This document shows positions 2,996-21,181 of a stretch of DNA of 48,221 nucleotides, in pieces. Origin of the DNA: a virus; the IMG/VR virus record IMGVR_UViG_3300003321_000121, positions 1,277 through 49,497 of that record, one strand, 5' to 3'. Numbering within the stretch: position 1 is the stretch's first letter; each line of letters starts with the position of its first letter. The translations under genes were made by a program, and so were the position numbers. The notes under the pieces are model-generated. The model did not search any database. It had not been told where the DNA came from and worked only from the letters and a program-made list of their open reading frames with translations.

Positions 2996-3228
2996 TATAG
3001 TCTAACCTCTTTGTAAGATGGCTTGGTAACTTCTTCGGCTCCAACAATCCGCAAATGCCCATAGCTATCTGTGCCATATTGCAATGCTTCACAGGCCATA
3101 TCAAATGTAGCATGTAAATACGCATCGTCAAGTGTTCTCGCCCACAATCTATTAGGCTTGTGCTCTTGCTTCAATGAGGCAATAGTCAAATAGCTATCAT
3201 CTACAATTGCTTGAATTGCATATTTCAT
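2995..3228 (-). CDS. Small hypothetical protein
   Basis: 77 aa from the ATG at 3228 (MKYAIQAIVDDSYLTIASLK), which has a GGAGG ribosome site 9 nt upstream. A longer in-frame reading exists but lacks such a site and would overlap the nuclease gene. The product is a mixed alpha/beta protein with no cysteine cluster beyond one Cys. Function unknown. Confidence 0.65.
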   Translation of the reverse strand: MKYAIQAIVDDSYLTIASLKQEHKPNRLWARTLDDAYLHATFDMACEALQYGTDSYGHLRIVGAEEVTKPSYKEVRL

Positions 3229-3229
3229 C

Positions 3230-4162
3230 CTAGTAATCCTCCGTTGGTTTCTCGAAATATTCCGACCGCAATATAGGAGCACGTTCATCCGGCTCAGCAA
3301 CACATAGTCTCCGGAATGGACACTCTACATTATAGCTGAAACAATCCCCATAATTCACCGGAGTCTGACGTACCGCCAGATTCTCTATCTTCTCTTGATT
3401 CGGAATCAGCTTCACACTATCCGGGTCCATAATATTCGCAAGCCTATCAGACCCAGCCATGATAATATCCCGATCCAGACTAGCAACTTGATACGCGTTA
3501 AACGCCGCTTCTGCCAATAATGAATCCGACCATTCGGGACAGGCATAATACCGCAACTCCGACGGGACGTGCTTGTATAACCCTTCTATGAATACACTCA
3601 CCCTACCATGAGTCTGGAATACATTCTTTGCTCCCGCAGTGTATAACTTCATCTGCAACGACGTTTCCCATTGGCGCTCCCAACGCGCATCAAGTCTACT
3701 CGCTGTCTTCAAGTCTCCAACCAGTAGCCAGTTTTCCTTAGAACTATAAACAGTCCGGTCGCATTGGAATGATAATATAGTATCCCGCAGGGGCAATTCA
3801 AACCGCTGCTCCACGTCCACCAATTTCCAATCATCCGCTGCGTCTTGAAATGGCCCAGCCAATTTCGCATTCTTGATATAATACTCCATCATGCTTACTG
3901 CCATTTCCTCGGATACCTTATCCTGAGATACATCCGTTAGCTCAAATCTATTATGCCATTCCTCCCGGACGGTCATTACCGCATCCCTACCCAGCCAATG
4001 CGCTGCTTGACCAGCATGGATCACAGAACCAAACTCCAACGATGCCGCGCTATACCGTGCTCGACTCAATACATCACTGAGGAAATGTCGTCTGTGACAT
4101 CTCGCCCCTAGCTCCGCTCGACTGGGGGTAATGACTACTGGTAGTTGAAGATGATTACTCAC
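3230..4162 (-). CDS. Cas4/RecB-type PD-(D/E)XK nuclease
   Basis: 310 aa. The nuclease core shows LVGDLKTASR (about residues 147-156), the D-x-K strand of the PD-(D/E)XK fold, followed by SLQMKLYTAG (about 167-176), the Q-x-x-x-Y motif of RecB/Cas4 enzymes. An early Cys (ARCHRRHFL) and C-terminal cysteines in GDCFSYNVECPFRRLC (about 273-288) fit the four-Cys iron-sulphur site of Cas4/AddB-type exonucleases. It probably resects DNA for the Sak4-like ATPase in the same operon. The start overlaps the upstream stop by 4 nt. Confidence 0.82.
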   Translation of the reverse strand: MSNHLQLPVVITPSRAELGARCHRRHFLSDVLSRARYSAASLEFGSVIHAGQAAHWLGRDAVMTVREEWHNRFELTDVSQDKVSEEMAVSMMEYYIKNAKLAGPFQDAADDWKLVDVEQRFELPLRDTILSFQCDRTVYSSKENWLLVGDLKTASRLDARWERQWETSLQMKLYTAGAKNVFQTHGRVSVFIEGLYKHVPSELRYYACPEWSDSLLAEAAFNAYQVASLDRDIIMAGSDRLANIMDPDSVKLIPNQEKIENLAVRQTPVNYGDCFSYNVECPFRRLCVAEPDERAPILRSEYFEKPTEDY

Positions 4163-16055: not shown

Positions 16056-16088
16056 AATGACGGTCGAGGACGTTATGCCTCTGACCAG

Positions 16089-16175
16089 CGGCAGACCAGA
16101 GATTCGAACTCTGACATCCTTTTTGGGATTCGGCGGTTTTCAGGACCGCTGGTATAGCCATTCACCCAATCTGCC
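16089..16175 (-). tRNA. tRNA-Ser (anticodon TGA)
   Basis: 87 nt class II tRNA on the minus strand. Acceptor GGCAGAT / GTCTGCC, D-arm with GGCTATACC, anticodon arm GCGGT-CCTGAAA-ACCGC (TGA, reads UCA), long variable arm, T-arm CAGAG-TTCGAAT-CTCTG, discriminator G. No CCA encoded. Its 5' 14 nt overlap the end of the HNH gene. Confidence 0.93.
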
Positions 16176-16524
16176 TAGTTTTCTTATTATCTATTGCCTT
16201 AACTGCCTTACAACTACTGCAACGACATCCTAGTTGATACGCCCATAGTGTACCACACTTAGGGTTTCTTTTTCTATTGCGTCGATTCGTCGTATTACAT
16301 TTATAATGACTAAACGCAACGTTCTCAACATTCCAAAATTTCTCTGGATCATCGTGCAGCCACGGTTCAATGTGATCCAAGGATAAATCATCTGGAGTTT
16401 CTATTCGTGCTCCACAACGAAAGCACCAATCTTCATCCAACTTCTGAAGCAACTTAAGCATTACTGCTTTGCGCAAGCGATTGGATGCAGTGCCAATGCC
16501 CAATCCTACCAAGTAACAATCCAT
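16162..16524 (-). CDS. HNH homing endonuclease overlapping tRNA-Ser
   Basis: 120 aa. WCFRCGARIETPDDLSLDHI, then EPWLHDD and ENVAFSHYKCNTTN, is a classic C-x-x-C / DH / H-x-x-C-N HNH nuclease core (about residues 33-80), followed by CGTLWAYQLGCRCSSCKAVK, a second Cys-rich module. The last five codons and the TGA stop lie inside the tRNA-Ser gene (acceptor and D-arm), so the endonuclease gene abuts and partly uses a tRNA gene. The target is probably nearby; not determinable here. Confidence 0.85.
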   Translation of the reverse strand: MDCYLVGLGIGTASNRLRKAVMLKLLQKLDEDWCFRCGARIETPDDLSLDHIEPWLHDDPEKFWNVENVAFSHYKCNTTNRRNRKRNPKCGTLWAYQLGCRCSSCKAVKAIDNKKTRQIG

Positions 16525-16776: not shown

Positions 16777-16848
16777 AGCAGACGGTGGGAATCGAACCCA
16801 CGTAGCTAGTTTGGAAGACTAGAGCCTAAACCACTCGACCACGTCTAC
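16777..16848 (-). tRNA. tRNA-Gly (anticodon TCC)
   Basis: 72 nt on the minus strand. Acceptor GTAGACG / CGTCTGC (one G-U), D-arm GTCGAGTGGTTTAGGC, anticodon arm CTAGT-CTTCCAA-ACTAG (TCC, reads GGA), T-arm GTGGG-TTCGATT-CCCAC, discriminator T. No CCA encoded. Confidence 0.93.
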
Positions 16849-18306: not shown

Positions 18307-18768
18307 CTAATATACTTTTGCCAATCTTTTTTCTTTATTACATGTCCCACACAAAATCTGGTAATCTTCTGGATGTCTTAGTGATCTACGGTATATTTGT
18401 GCTTGAGTTAATTCCCGCCTTTCTAGATAGCCATTGTCCTTTTTGTGGTCTAGTTCCCAAGCCACTCCAGAGTATCCGCAGTTTACACAAGCGCCCCCAA
18501 ATAATTCCCGCACTTGCTCTCGAAGTCTACGATACTGCTCTCTGGACTTACTTTTGGCCTTGTTTCTCACTATCGGATCATTTTGATACCGTTTTCTATT
18601 GTATTCTCTCCGCTTAGCTTGCAAAATATCTTTATTTTGTTGATAGTACCGTTTATCACTTTCAGGATGTGCTGCTTTCCATGCTTTAACTTGGGCAGCT
18701 ATCTTTGCCTTGTTGCGCTTGCGGTATTCTTTCATATATTGTCTAGTATATTCAGGAGTCCACGGCAT
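18307..18768 (-). CDS. HNH homing endonuclease, divergent from the capsid gene
   Basis: 153 aa. The first two thirds is a long basic helix (YTRQYMKEYRKRNKAKIAAQ and on), a DNA-binding leader. The HNH core is ACVNCGYSGVAWELDHKKDN (about residues 93-112), with YQILCGTCNKEKR (about 135-147) as the second Cys pair. It stands 220 bp upstream of the capsid gene's first exon, transcribed in the opposite direction. A similar gene lies downstream of the capsid gene. Together with the ORF-less intron this suggests a homing role at the capsid locus. Confidence 0.85.
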   Translation of the reverse strand: MPWTPEYTRQYMKEYRKRNKAKIAAQVKAWKAAHPESDKRYYQQNKDILQAKRREYNRKRYQNDPIVRNKAKSKSREQYRRLREQVRELFGGACVNCGYSGVAWELDHKKDNGYLERRELTQAQIYRRSLRHPEDYQILCGTCNKEKRLAKVY

Positions 18769-18773
18769 TATTC

Positions 18774-18803
18774 AATATAATATAATTCTCCAAATCTTGT
18801 CAA
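18774..18803 (-). promoter_or_regulatory. Promoter of the HNH gene 18307-18768
   Basis: Minus strand TTGACA (18798-18803), 18 nt, TATATT (18774-18779). The -10 ends 5 nt before the ATG, so the transcript would be almost leaderless. A TATATT with 13 nt spacing also exists. Confidence 0.5.
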
Positions 18804-18813
18804 TAGAAAAAAG

Positions 18814-18842
18814 TTGACAGAACTCGCCTTACCTTATATATT
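18814..18842 (+). promoter_or_regulatory. Sigma70-type promoter of the capsid operon
   Basis: TTGACA (18814-18819), exactly 17 nt, TATATT (18837-18842), a near-consensus promoter. It drives the plus-strand virion genes after a leader of about 140 nt. It is back-to-back with the promoter at 18774-18803. Confidence 0.8.
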
Positions 18843-18987
18843 TACTCTAAGACAAAAGCCATTGCTCACTCTTTAGTCGCAATCCGCTTTCGTTACAATT
18901 CAAATGCGCGTGGTCCCGATTGCTAGATAAGCCCACTCCCGCCAATTCGCTCTAGCAGCAGTAGTTTGTAATGAAATAGAGTCAACA

Positions 18988-20546
18988 ATGGCTGATGCCA
19001 CAGATTTTGCAGGACTTACTAGAGCCCCGCAGTGTGTCTGCCATGAGAACGTACTGAAGTAGTCCTGTTCTCAAGAACGTAAACTAAAAACTGGTTGATT
19101 GCGTTCTAAAAATTCCGTGAATTGCTGGAAGCCGTTTAGGTAATCAGCAGCCAAGCGCGTCAGGAATGGCGCGAAGGTTCAGAGACTAGAGAGCGACCGA
19201 GAACCGGATTAGCTCTCCAAGAGTGCGGAACGAGGCAATATAATACCTCGAAGATATAGTCCGTTACTTGGCGAAAGCCAAGGGGGGAGATAAAGAACTC
19301 CCTGAAGGAACTCGACCGATATCTCCCAATCCGTAAGAAAATCTTCCCCATCAATACAGTCCTGCTAGCTCAGGCTCGTAAGCTGGGTCCGGAGACTGTT
19401 ACTTACGCCGGTAACGACCTATTCTTCGATGTCAAAGTCGAGCGTCGTGGTGGTTTCGTTTCTTCAGCGGCAGGATTCCTTCCTACCTCACGTATCGCAC
19501 GTGAAAAGCAAGGCCGACTATCAGTCGCGCGTACTTATGCAAAAGTTCAAGTCGATGGACTTGCGCTAAAGGCAACCAATGATCAAAAGGGTTCATATAT
19601 CTCTGCGGCTAAGAAAATCGTTGAAGATGTCATGGACCAGTGGGAAATCGAACAAGAGCGTATCCTTCATGGTGATTCTCTTGGCGTTCGTGCGGTTATT
19701 GGAACCGTCACTGACACCACCCACGTCATTGCCTCAGCACCTTATGGTATTACCGGCGCAGGTATCGGTAACCTTCACCTAGTTGATGGTGACGATATCG
19801 CTGTGCTTAACGGTACTACCTTCGCTCTACGTGGTAAGACCACGATTTCCTCACACACCGTTTCAGGTGACAACGTTACATTCACTCTCGGTACCGCAGT
19901 CGCAGGTATGGCAGTGAACGATGTTATTGTCACTTGCGTACCTACCGCAGTCGATGCCAATGATACTTCATTCGGTGCAGAACCACACGGCCTAAAGTCA
20001 ATCATGGACGTAGAAGCTGCGTTCGCAACTTTCGAAGGTCTAAACGACCCTCGTTGGGTAGCAAACAAGCTGACTTCTGCTACCGTTGACGAAACCATCG
20101 TCATGAAGCTCCTTAACACCATCCGCGCACGTTCTGGCGTTGACTGGCGTAAGAACCCAAAGAACACTCTGCTACTTACCTCAACTGGTATCTGGCAGGC
20201 GTACGGTGAATCATTGCTAGGTCTACGTCGTTTCTCAGCGCCTACGCTTACCCTTGAGGGTGGATTTACCGGTGTTCAAGTTGCCAATGCCGCATTGGTC
20301 GATGATCCTTGGGCTCCACGTGGTAGACTATACTCTGTCTACGGACCCGACACTTGCTTCGTCGATTTGATGGACTTTGGTGAGATTTCATTCCAAGACG
20401 CTCCTAAGTGGCAGCGTGTTGCGAACCGTGATGCTTGGGAAGCGGTGTTTGCGTCGTACTGGAACTACGGCGCGTTGAACCGTCTGTCTCAGGGTGTCAT
20501 TTCTGGAATTACAGACACAGTTAACTACAGCCCGGTCTTCGCCTGA
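18988..20546 (+). CDS. Major capsid protein, split by a group I intron
   Basis: Exon 1 starts at ATG 18988 (MADATDFAGLT) and, left unspliced, meets a TAG at 19060. Exon 2 continues in another frame: NSLKELDRYLPIRKKIFPIN, then LGPETVTYAGNDLFFDVKVE, RRGGFVSSAAG and on to 20546. With exons 18988-19020 and 19296-20546 the product is 427 aa. DVMDQWEIEQERILHGDSLG and the Gly/Thr-rich rest match a family of phage major capsid proteins that start DFAGLT...YLPIRKK. The first ATG inside exon 2 (19632) is not the true start: conserved coding extends 110 codons upstream of it. Exact junctions are uncertain by a few residues. Confidence 0.85.
19021..19295 (+). ncRNA. Group I intron (IA-type, no ORF) in the capsid gene
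   Basis: Elements in order: P2 GAGAAC/GUUCUC (19045-50/19067-72), P2.1 AGAACG/CGUUCU, P3 UUCCGU (19113-19118) with GCGGAA (19225-19230), P box 19120-19130, Q AATCAGCAGCCAAGC (19142-19156), R GTTCAGAGACTA (19177-19188), P7.1 GAGAGC/GCUCUC, P8 CGAGG/CCUCG, S AAGATATAGTCC (19251-19262) pairing with R as P7, P9 CTTGGC-GAAA-GCCAAG (19267-19282). P7.1 marks subgroup IA. Exon 1 (19012-19020) pairs with 19031-19039 as P1. The 5' site is after U19017 or U19020; the 3' site is after G19295 or G19307; all choices keep frame. Confidence 0.88.
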
Positions 20547-20604
20547 TAACTGTAATTATACCAATGGTTTACGAGGTCTCTGTTCAACTAGTACTTTATC
20601 ACGC

Positions 20605-20650
20605 TTGACTTTCTCCCCAATATTGGTTATACTAATAATCCCTATTGGGG
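20605..20650 (+). promoter_or_regulatory. Promoter and inverted repeat before HNH gene
   Basis: TTGACT (20605-20610), 17 nt, TATACT (20628-20633). The -10 lies inside the loop of CCCCAATA (20615-20622) / TATTGGGG (20643-20650), whose second arm abuts the AGGAGG ribosome site. Possible autoregulation of the endonuclease. Confidence 0.6.
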
Positions 20651-20665
20651 AGGAGGTAAGACAAA

Positions 20666-21181
20666 ATGTACAAAGAAGAACATCGCAAAGAAAAGCAGCG
20701 TGAAGCACAGCGAAAATATCGTGAACGACATGCTGAGAATTTGAAAGCGAAACGAGACGCAGTACGTGAATCAGGAGAAATGAAAGAATACTGGCGAGAG
20801 AAGACGAAACGAAATCGCCAAAAGAACAAGGAGTTGTACAAGTCATTAGACACACGTTGGTACCATAACGCCAAAGATAGAGCCTTTGATATTTTGGGTG
20901 GGAAGTGCGCAAGTTGTGGTTGGACTGATCCAAGAGCCTTACAAGTTGATCATGTAGTTGCGATTGGAGACGCAGAGCGTAGGCGGCTAGGGCATAGAGG
21001 TAGAAAGCTGTACCAAGCAGTCGTCAAGAACCCTACAATGTTTCAACTGCTATGTGCCAACTGCAATTGGATTAAGCGACACGACAAGGGCGAACGATTT
21101 TGTAATATACAACCTTCGATACACGCAACACCACAACTGGACGATAGCAAATTAGCTATCGGGTCTGGAAGGAATAATTAA
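20666..21181 (+). CDS. HNH homing endonuclease downstream of capsid gene
   Basis: 171 aa. The N-terminal 70 residues are a very basic helix (HRKEKQREAQRKYRERHAEN). The nuclease core is GGKCASCGWTDPRALQVDHV (about residues 78-97) and FQLLCANCNWIKRHDKG (about 131-147). It has its own promoter and a strong GGGGAGGAGG ribosome site. It resembles 18307-18768 in layout. Placed between capsid and decoration genes, it appears inserted into the virion operon. Confidence 0.87.
   Translation: MYKEEHRKEKQREAQRKYRERHAENLKAKRDAVRESGEMKEYWREKTKRNRQKNKELYKSLDTRWYHNAKDRAFDILGGKCASCGWTDPRALQVDHVVAIGDAERRRLGHRGRKLYQAVVKNPTMFQLLCANCNWIKRHDKGERFCNIQPSIHATPQLDDSKLAIGSGRNN

Follow-up and report, generated by a model that had tools for sequence, protein, structure and literature searches.

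In mycobacteriophage LittleE the major capsid gene is interrupted by a group I intron, the splicing of which was shown by RT-PCR and protein sequencing (PMC3706429). The locus considered here lies in a window of 48,221 nt, i.e. bases 1277-49497 of a 49,497-base IMG/VR virus record from an uncultivated phage, and resembles the LittleE case in that a group I-like intron resides in a phage major capsid gene, with exon 1 ending in U and the intron ending in G. The LittleE intron also differs in its length (about 819 bp), in the endonuclease ORF it holds, in the phage concerned and in its single 5' splice site. Closer in size is the ORF-less 265-bp intron in the minor tail gene of BAKA (PMC3706429), which likewise is small, interrupts a virion gene and is surrounded by many free-standing HNH genes; unlike the present case, its host is a tail gene and a duplicated splice site was not reported (PMC3706429).

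Regarding mobility, the psbA intron of S-PM2 and the endonuclease F-CphI offer the nearest parallel, in that the intron is ORF-less and a free-standing endonuclease gene lies beside the host gene, the intron shielding the genome of the endonuclease itself in what is called collaborative homing (PMC6083498). Cleavage and protection were measured in S-PM2, whereas the HNH gene found downstream of the capsid gene in the window occurs in intronless relatives too. In T4 gene 60, the coding sequence contains an insert of 40-50 nt with a stop, and homing genes lie nearby. The mobA insertion has been noted (PMC2988022). The window shares with the bypass segment of gene 60 such a stop-bearing insert of 40-50 nt and the proximity of homing genes, but differs in that the intron, self-splicing and with its splice site duplicated, would give a simpler route.

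The intron and its host gene

The host frame, exon 2, extends on the + strand from 19319 to the stop at 20546, opening with a single A followed by YLPIRKK. It scored 82.7 bits against NCBIfam NF033394 (cut-off 80) and matched the major head protein family phrog_14242 with an E-value of 1.3e-23; judged by these profiles, the intron's host is a true major capsid gene. Against five relatives, dN in exon 2 was 0.09-0.21 while dS was near or at saturation, so that the capsid protein has been under strong purifying selection and the gene has been functional. As first described, the frame is open upstream of its first in-frame ATG, but for 124 codons upstream of ATG 19632 rather than 110. A promoter-like site, TTGACA-17-TATATT, is present at 18814-18842 (+) with 11/12 consensus matches, a score that in a consensus scan alone is not above chance; TTGACA occurs at a similar distance from the ATG, -156 to -180, in three relatives (L003, L005 and L008). 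No relative of the capsid protein was found in bacterial genomes, PDB sequence searches with the capsid and HNH proteins gave no significant match, and the AlphaFold model of the capsid protein, with a mean pLDDT of 38, was set aside.

Upstream of this frame, a scan with all Rfam families placed a group I intron match (RF00028) at 19043-19283 (+), with 70.1 bits and an E-value of 7.1e-16 for a gathering threshold of 50, and no further group I intron in the whole 49,497-base record. The initial annotation had recognised a group I intron in the capsid gene, with P3, P7, P7.1, P8 and P9 elements and without an endonuclease; all of this was borne out, the covariance model folding the segment as group I. 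The helices P1, P3, P4, P5, P6, P6a, P7, P7.1, P7.2, P8, P9 and P9.1 were all found with standard pairs, on the + strand. P1 joins 19074-19080 to 19101-19107, with U19080.G19101 at the 5' splice site; it is followed by P3 (19113-19118/19225-19230), P4 (19122-19127/19145-19150), P5 (19131-19133/19139-19141), P6, read from the sequence as CC 19151-19152 with GG 19176-19177, and P6a (19156-19161/19168-19173). The P7 pseudoknot, GACUA 19184-19188 with UAGUC 19257-19261, encloses P7.1 (19189-19194/19212-19217) and P7.2 (19197-19199/19205-19207), together spanning 19189-19217, as well as P8 (19231-19235/19246-19250, spanning 19231-19250), and is followed by P9 (19267-19272/19277-19282) and P9.1 (19285-19289/19298-19302). 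P7.1/P7.2 is a mark of subgroup IA, to which the intron is assigned because these helices are present. Its RNA fold beat 200 of 200 shuffles (z -4.16), and open stretches do not exceed 52 codons on either strand.

The nearest sibling in IMG/VR is an intron in an HK97-type capsid gene (L089), 89% identical over the 74 nt of core from P3 to P7. The two share the same helices, with compensatory differences in P3, P6a, P8, P9 and P9.1; unlike the intron of the window, that of L089 forms P2 as a separate hairpin, and a second copy of the P1 target was not noticed in it.

Intron borders defined by intronless relatives

Twelve relatives were retrieved from IMG/VR, nine of them with an intact 5' end and all nine intronless. 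Their N-terminus reads MADPQILQDFTPVLKNV^YLPIRKK, the protein starting with MADPQILQDFTPVLKNVYLPIRKK in most of the nine, and all nine show the exact empty site KNV^YLPI. Since YLPI starts at 19320 in the window, the 3' splice site is placed between G19318 and A19319, G19318 being the terminal base of the intron. On the other side, CCT GTT CTC AAG AAC GT at 19064-19080 (+), directly 5' of the intron, encodes PVLKN plus the initial two bases of the V codon, and the residues preceding YLPI in intronless L002-L007 and L012 are identical to the PVLKNV of the window; the ancestral 5' site is therefore set at 19080/19081 and the intron, at 19081-19318 (+), measures 238 nt and not the approximately 275 nt first proposed.

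The internal guide sequence GCGUUCU (19101-19107, +) forms seven pairs out of seven with either copy of AGAACGU, the one at 19074-19080 or the one at 19046-19052. A systematic scan for 7-bp P1 helices with a terminal U.G left only these two options, with the exon ending at 19080 or at 19052; use of the upstream one would lengthen the intron to 266 nt, from 19053. As the ancestral site, 19052 is ruled out by the PVLKNV at 19064-19080. The P1 first drawn by Rfam, GAGAAC:GUUCUC, was rejected as the true helix because its exon end is without a U.G; with the scan limited to 19070-19330, RF00028 scored 65.9 bits and Rfam itself placed P1 at the 19080 junction. The sequence supports well the group I intron, the gene that hosts it and the borders given here.

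An ORF-less subgroup-IA intron would have entered the major capsid gene within its first conserved stretch, splitting the Val codon in KNV^YLPIRKK. The guide GCGUUCU would pair with the exon AGAACGU to form P1 and, following the chemistry of the family, an exogenous G would attack after the U, after which exon 1 would attack after G19318 and the exons would be joined at A19319.

A short insert duplicating the 5' splice target

The first exon starts with ATG and MADATDFAGLT at 18988-19020 (+), which by DNA alignment and translations is the nucleotide homologue of MADPQILQDFT in the relatives. Compared with six intronless relatives, an extra G near 18997 shifts the frame and makes a second ATG at 18995. 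Between MADATDFAGLT and PVLKNV, an insert of 43 nt (19021-19063, +), not in any relative, contains a TGA at 19055-19057, a TAG at 19060-19062 and, at 19046-19052, an AGAACGU identical to the P1 target at 19074-19080. What is odd at this locus is, judging from the alignments, this short insert, which duplicates the splice site and breaks the reading frame of the relatives. The 5' exon had been taken to end with MADATDFAGLT at 19020, but joined to exon 2 this segment reads MADATDFAGLTISPNP-stop, an early termination. Splicing at 19080 likewise leads to an early stop in both frames, ...ENVLK* from ATG 18988 and ...MRTY* from ATG 18995, while splicing at 19052/19053 yields an open capsid frame of 430 codons from ATG 18988, with a predicted product MADATDFAGLTRAPQCVCHENV^YLPIRKK... 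that is without the conserved LQDFTPVLKN segment. Given the insert and the extra G, only splicing at 19052/19053 leaves an uninterrupted frame from ATG 18988 into exon 2. Reading TGA as Trp was also tried and dropped, as it provides no start-codon ORF of at least 60 codons across the junction.

The 43-nt insert with its second AGAACGU and the 1-nt insertion upstream would be later gains at the locus; the ancestral downstream copy, if spliced, would then give a stop-containing message, and splicing at the upstream copy (19052/19053) is the most likely source of capsid, a choice of 5' site held at slightly below an even chance. In ViennaRNA folding, the downstream copy is paired with a probability of about 0.99 while the upstream copy is sequestered in a hairpin at 19044-19073; because the downstream copy is favoured, the productive upstream site looks disfavoured at equilibrium. 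A bolder proposal is that capsid output is set by two equal 5' targets 28 nt apart and in different frames, the fold hiding the upstream, productive one, in which case some factor, for instance the ribosome or timing, must switch between them, or else that a recoding insert sits beside the intron; such a scheme is considered quite unlikely.

The same intron could also be read with the insert and the extra G as assembly or sequencing faults, or as marks of a defective allele, the gene then being MADPQILQDL(T)PVLKNV^YLPIRKK, spliced only at 19080/19081. If both changes are taken away, the exon reads as in all relatives, the frame-2 codons of the first exon retain the residues of the relatives (PQILQDL, PVLKNV), and exon 2 is under purifying selection. 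The allele with both changes was seen in one genome only among the collections searched: patterns for the guide sequence, the junction and the insert recovered no second intron-bearing allele from IMG/VR, some matches being unrelated. The insert, however, holds the exact 7-nt P1 target, which is rare in the genome: the 49.5-kb record has AGAACGT three times on its + strand, and two of these lie at the insert and the exon 1 end; it arose in 158 of 20,000 dinucleotide shuffles of the insert (0.8%). Moreover, a single open frame is restored by the insert and the extra G in combination, and a repeat that could account for a mis-join was not found. No source of the insert was found elsewhere in the window or in the loci compared. 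A fault or a defective allele is regarded as a rather unlikely origin of the disturbed junction, ranking second after splicing at the upstream copy.

Another possibility is splicing at 19080/19081 with the insert handled by the ribosome, either through readthrough of the TGA at 19055 from ATG 18995, the product of which would be MPQILQDLLEPRSVSAMRTY[UGA]SSPVLKNVYLPI, or through hopping as in T4 gene 60. From ATG 18995, a single stop precedes the natural one and both conserved segments are retained, the stops fall within the stable hairpin at 19044-19073, and the 19080 site is the one favoured by folding. Yet a capsid needs high expression, of which simple readthrough would fall short. The gene 60 bypass needs an upstream nascent-peptide signal, for which the insert, starting about eight codons past ATG 18995, comes too early; an identical take-off/landing pair is not evident, matched codons being not compelling, and the bypass signals of T4 gene 60 were not found. 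Recoding of this kind is judged unlikely and ranks third. Splicing at the duplicated upstream target keeps its place as the preferred reading, and the double splice site, if real, would be a natural test of how an essential gene is kept working after its intron junction has been disturbed.

HNH genes around the capsid gene

Two free-standing HNH genes bracket the capsid gene, as the initial annotation had it: one upstream and divergent, of 153 aa (18307-18768, -), matching HNH PHROGs, and one downstream, of 171 aa (20666-21181, +), matching phrog_2255 with 1.4e-10. The promoter that had been attributed to the latter finds a counterpart in a promoter-like TTGACT-17-TATACT at 20605-20633. Both genes and the capsid-adjacent HNH genes of L002, L006, L008, L009, L011 and L013 are homologous to one another, and in L002, L006 and L013 an HNH gene lies directly before the capsid start codon. 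In L006 and L013, where the HNH gene is immediately 5', the capsid start codon is TTG. The flanking genes of the window belong to a free-standing homing-type family whose members, in this group of phages, cluster near the capsid gene.

The layout had been presented as that of collaborative homing, in which a flanking HNH protein would spread the intron by cutting, at its insertion site, a capsid allele that lacks it, and the intron would in turn protect its own genome, an account compatible with the intron reading above. The arrangement itself holds, an ORF-less intron standing beside two intact-looking HNH genes as in S-PM2 psbA/F-CphI (PMC6083498; reviewed in PMC3984707). Where the proposal suffers is in the distribution of the downstream gene: intronless L006, L007, L012 and L008 still have an orthologue (49-52% identity) in the corresponding position; the gene is also carried by L009 and L011, whose 5' capsid ends are missing, and L002, L003, L004, L005 and L010 are without it at that place. 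Since the intron protects the genome of its nuclease and this HNH gene is found in intronless genomes, cutting at the intron site is unlikely unless specificity has changed, and collaborative homing via the downstream HNH is weakened.

By its place and orientation, the upstream HNH gene is confined to the window among relatives with upstream sequence, i.e. to the one intron-bearing genome known. Local tblastn shows distant homology between it and the other HNH genes beside the capsid gene, and a pattern search of IMG/VR returned no relatives of it. The upstream HNH may take part in homing; a single genome yields no correlation, however, and on that footing this gene is no more than compatible with homing. 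Free-standing homing-gene clusters around essential genes and collaborative-homing layouts have both been described already (PMC10448857), and the HNH genes here resemble such a homing-gene island, which is common in phages. Taken as a whole, collaborative homing at this locus is deemed unlikely. The account preferred here, of a subgroup-IA intron in the capsid gene, a later insert and 1-nt insertion, splicing at the upstream site and flanking homing-type HNH genes, is on the whole probable; that splicing occurs, like the 5' site used and any mobility, is what we infer from the nucleotide record.

A third HNH gene (16162-16524, -) is located between tRNA-Ser (16088-16175) and tRNA-Gly (16777-16848), with no homologue in the family loci searched. 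Arrays of numerous tRNA genes lie upstream of the capsid gene in L002, L003, L006, L008 and L013, while the window has only three tRNAs in all.

Capsid genes as intron hosts

A capsid gene had been called an unusual host for such an intron, a view that the wider survey and the published LittleE case contradict. Searching IMG/VR with a P4-P7 core pattern gave 110 stretches and 77 distinct open frames behind introns, the frame used being the longest near the intron, so that a few are intron ORFs and not exons. About 15 of these 77 frames are major capsid proteins by Pfam (SU10_MCP 5, Gp10A-like 4, Phage_capsid 2, Phage_capsid_4 2, Gp23 1 and Phage_capsid_2 1), a sum which assumes that the families mark different members. 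With PHROGs, the frames behind sibling introns include photosystem II D1 (10), tail protein (7) and several major head families. Group I introns in capsid genes are known and fairly common, and the window adds a well-bounded example. The survey points to capsid genes as one of the commoner hosts for this class of intron in viral metagenomes and, this being so, the annotated capsid genes of uncultivated phages may often lack their N-terminus.

In L063 and L078, psbA-like genes of cyanophage type contain two to four group I introns over a distance of about 1-2 kb, and L060 has two neighbouring group I introns (3012-3814) and, upstream of them at 2047-2100, a match to the glutamine-II riboswitch. 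In L224 (Rhizobium phage RHph_N3_13), a stretch resembling a group I intron (2065-2147) lies between a hypothetical gene and the annotated terminase large subunit gene, which suggests an unannotated terminase exon.
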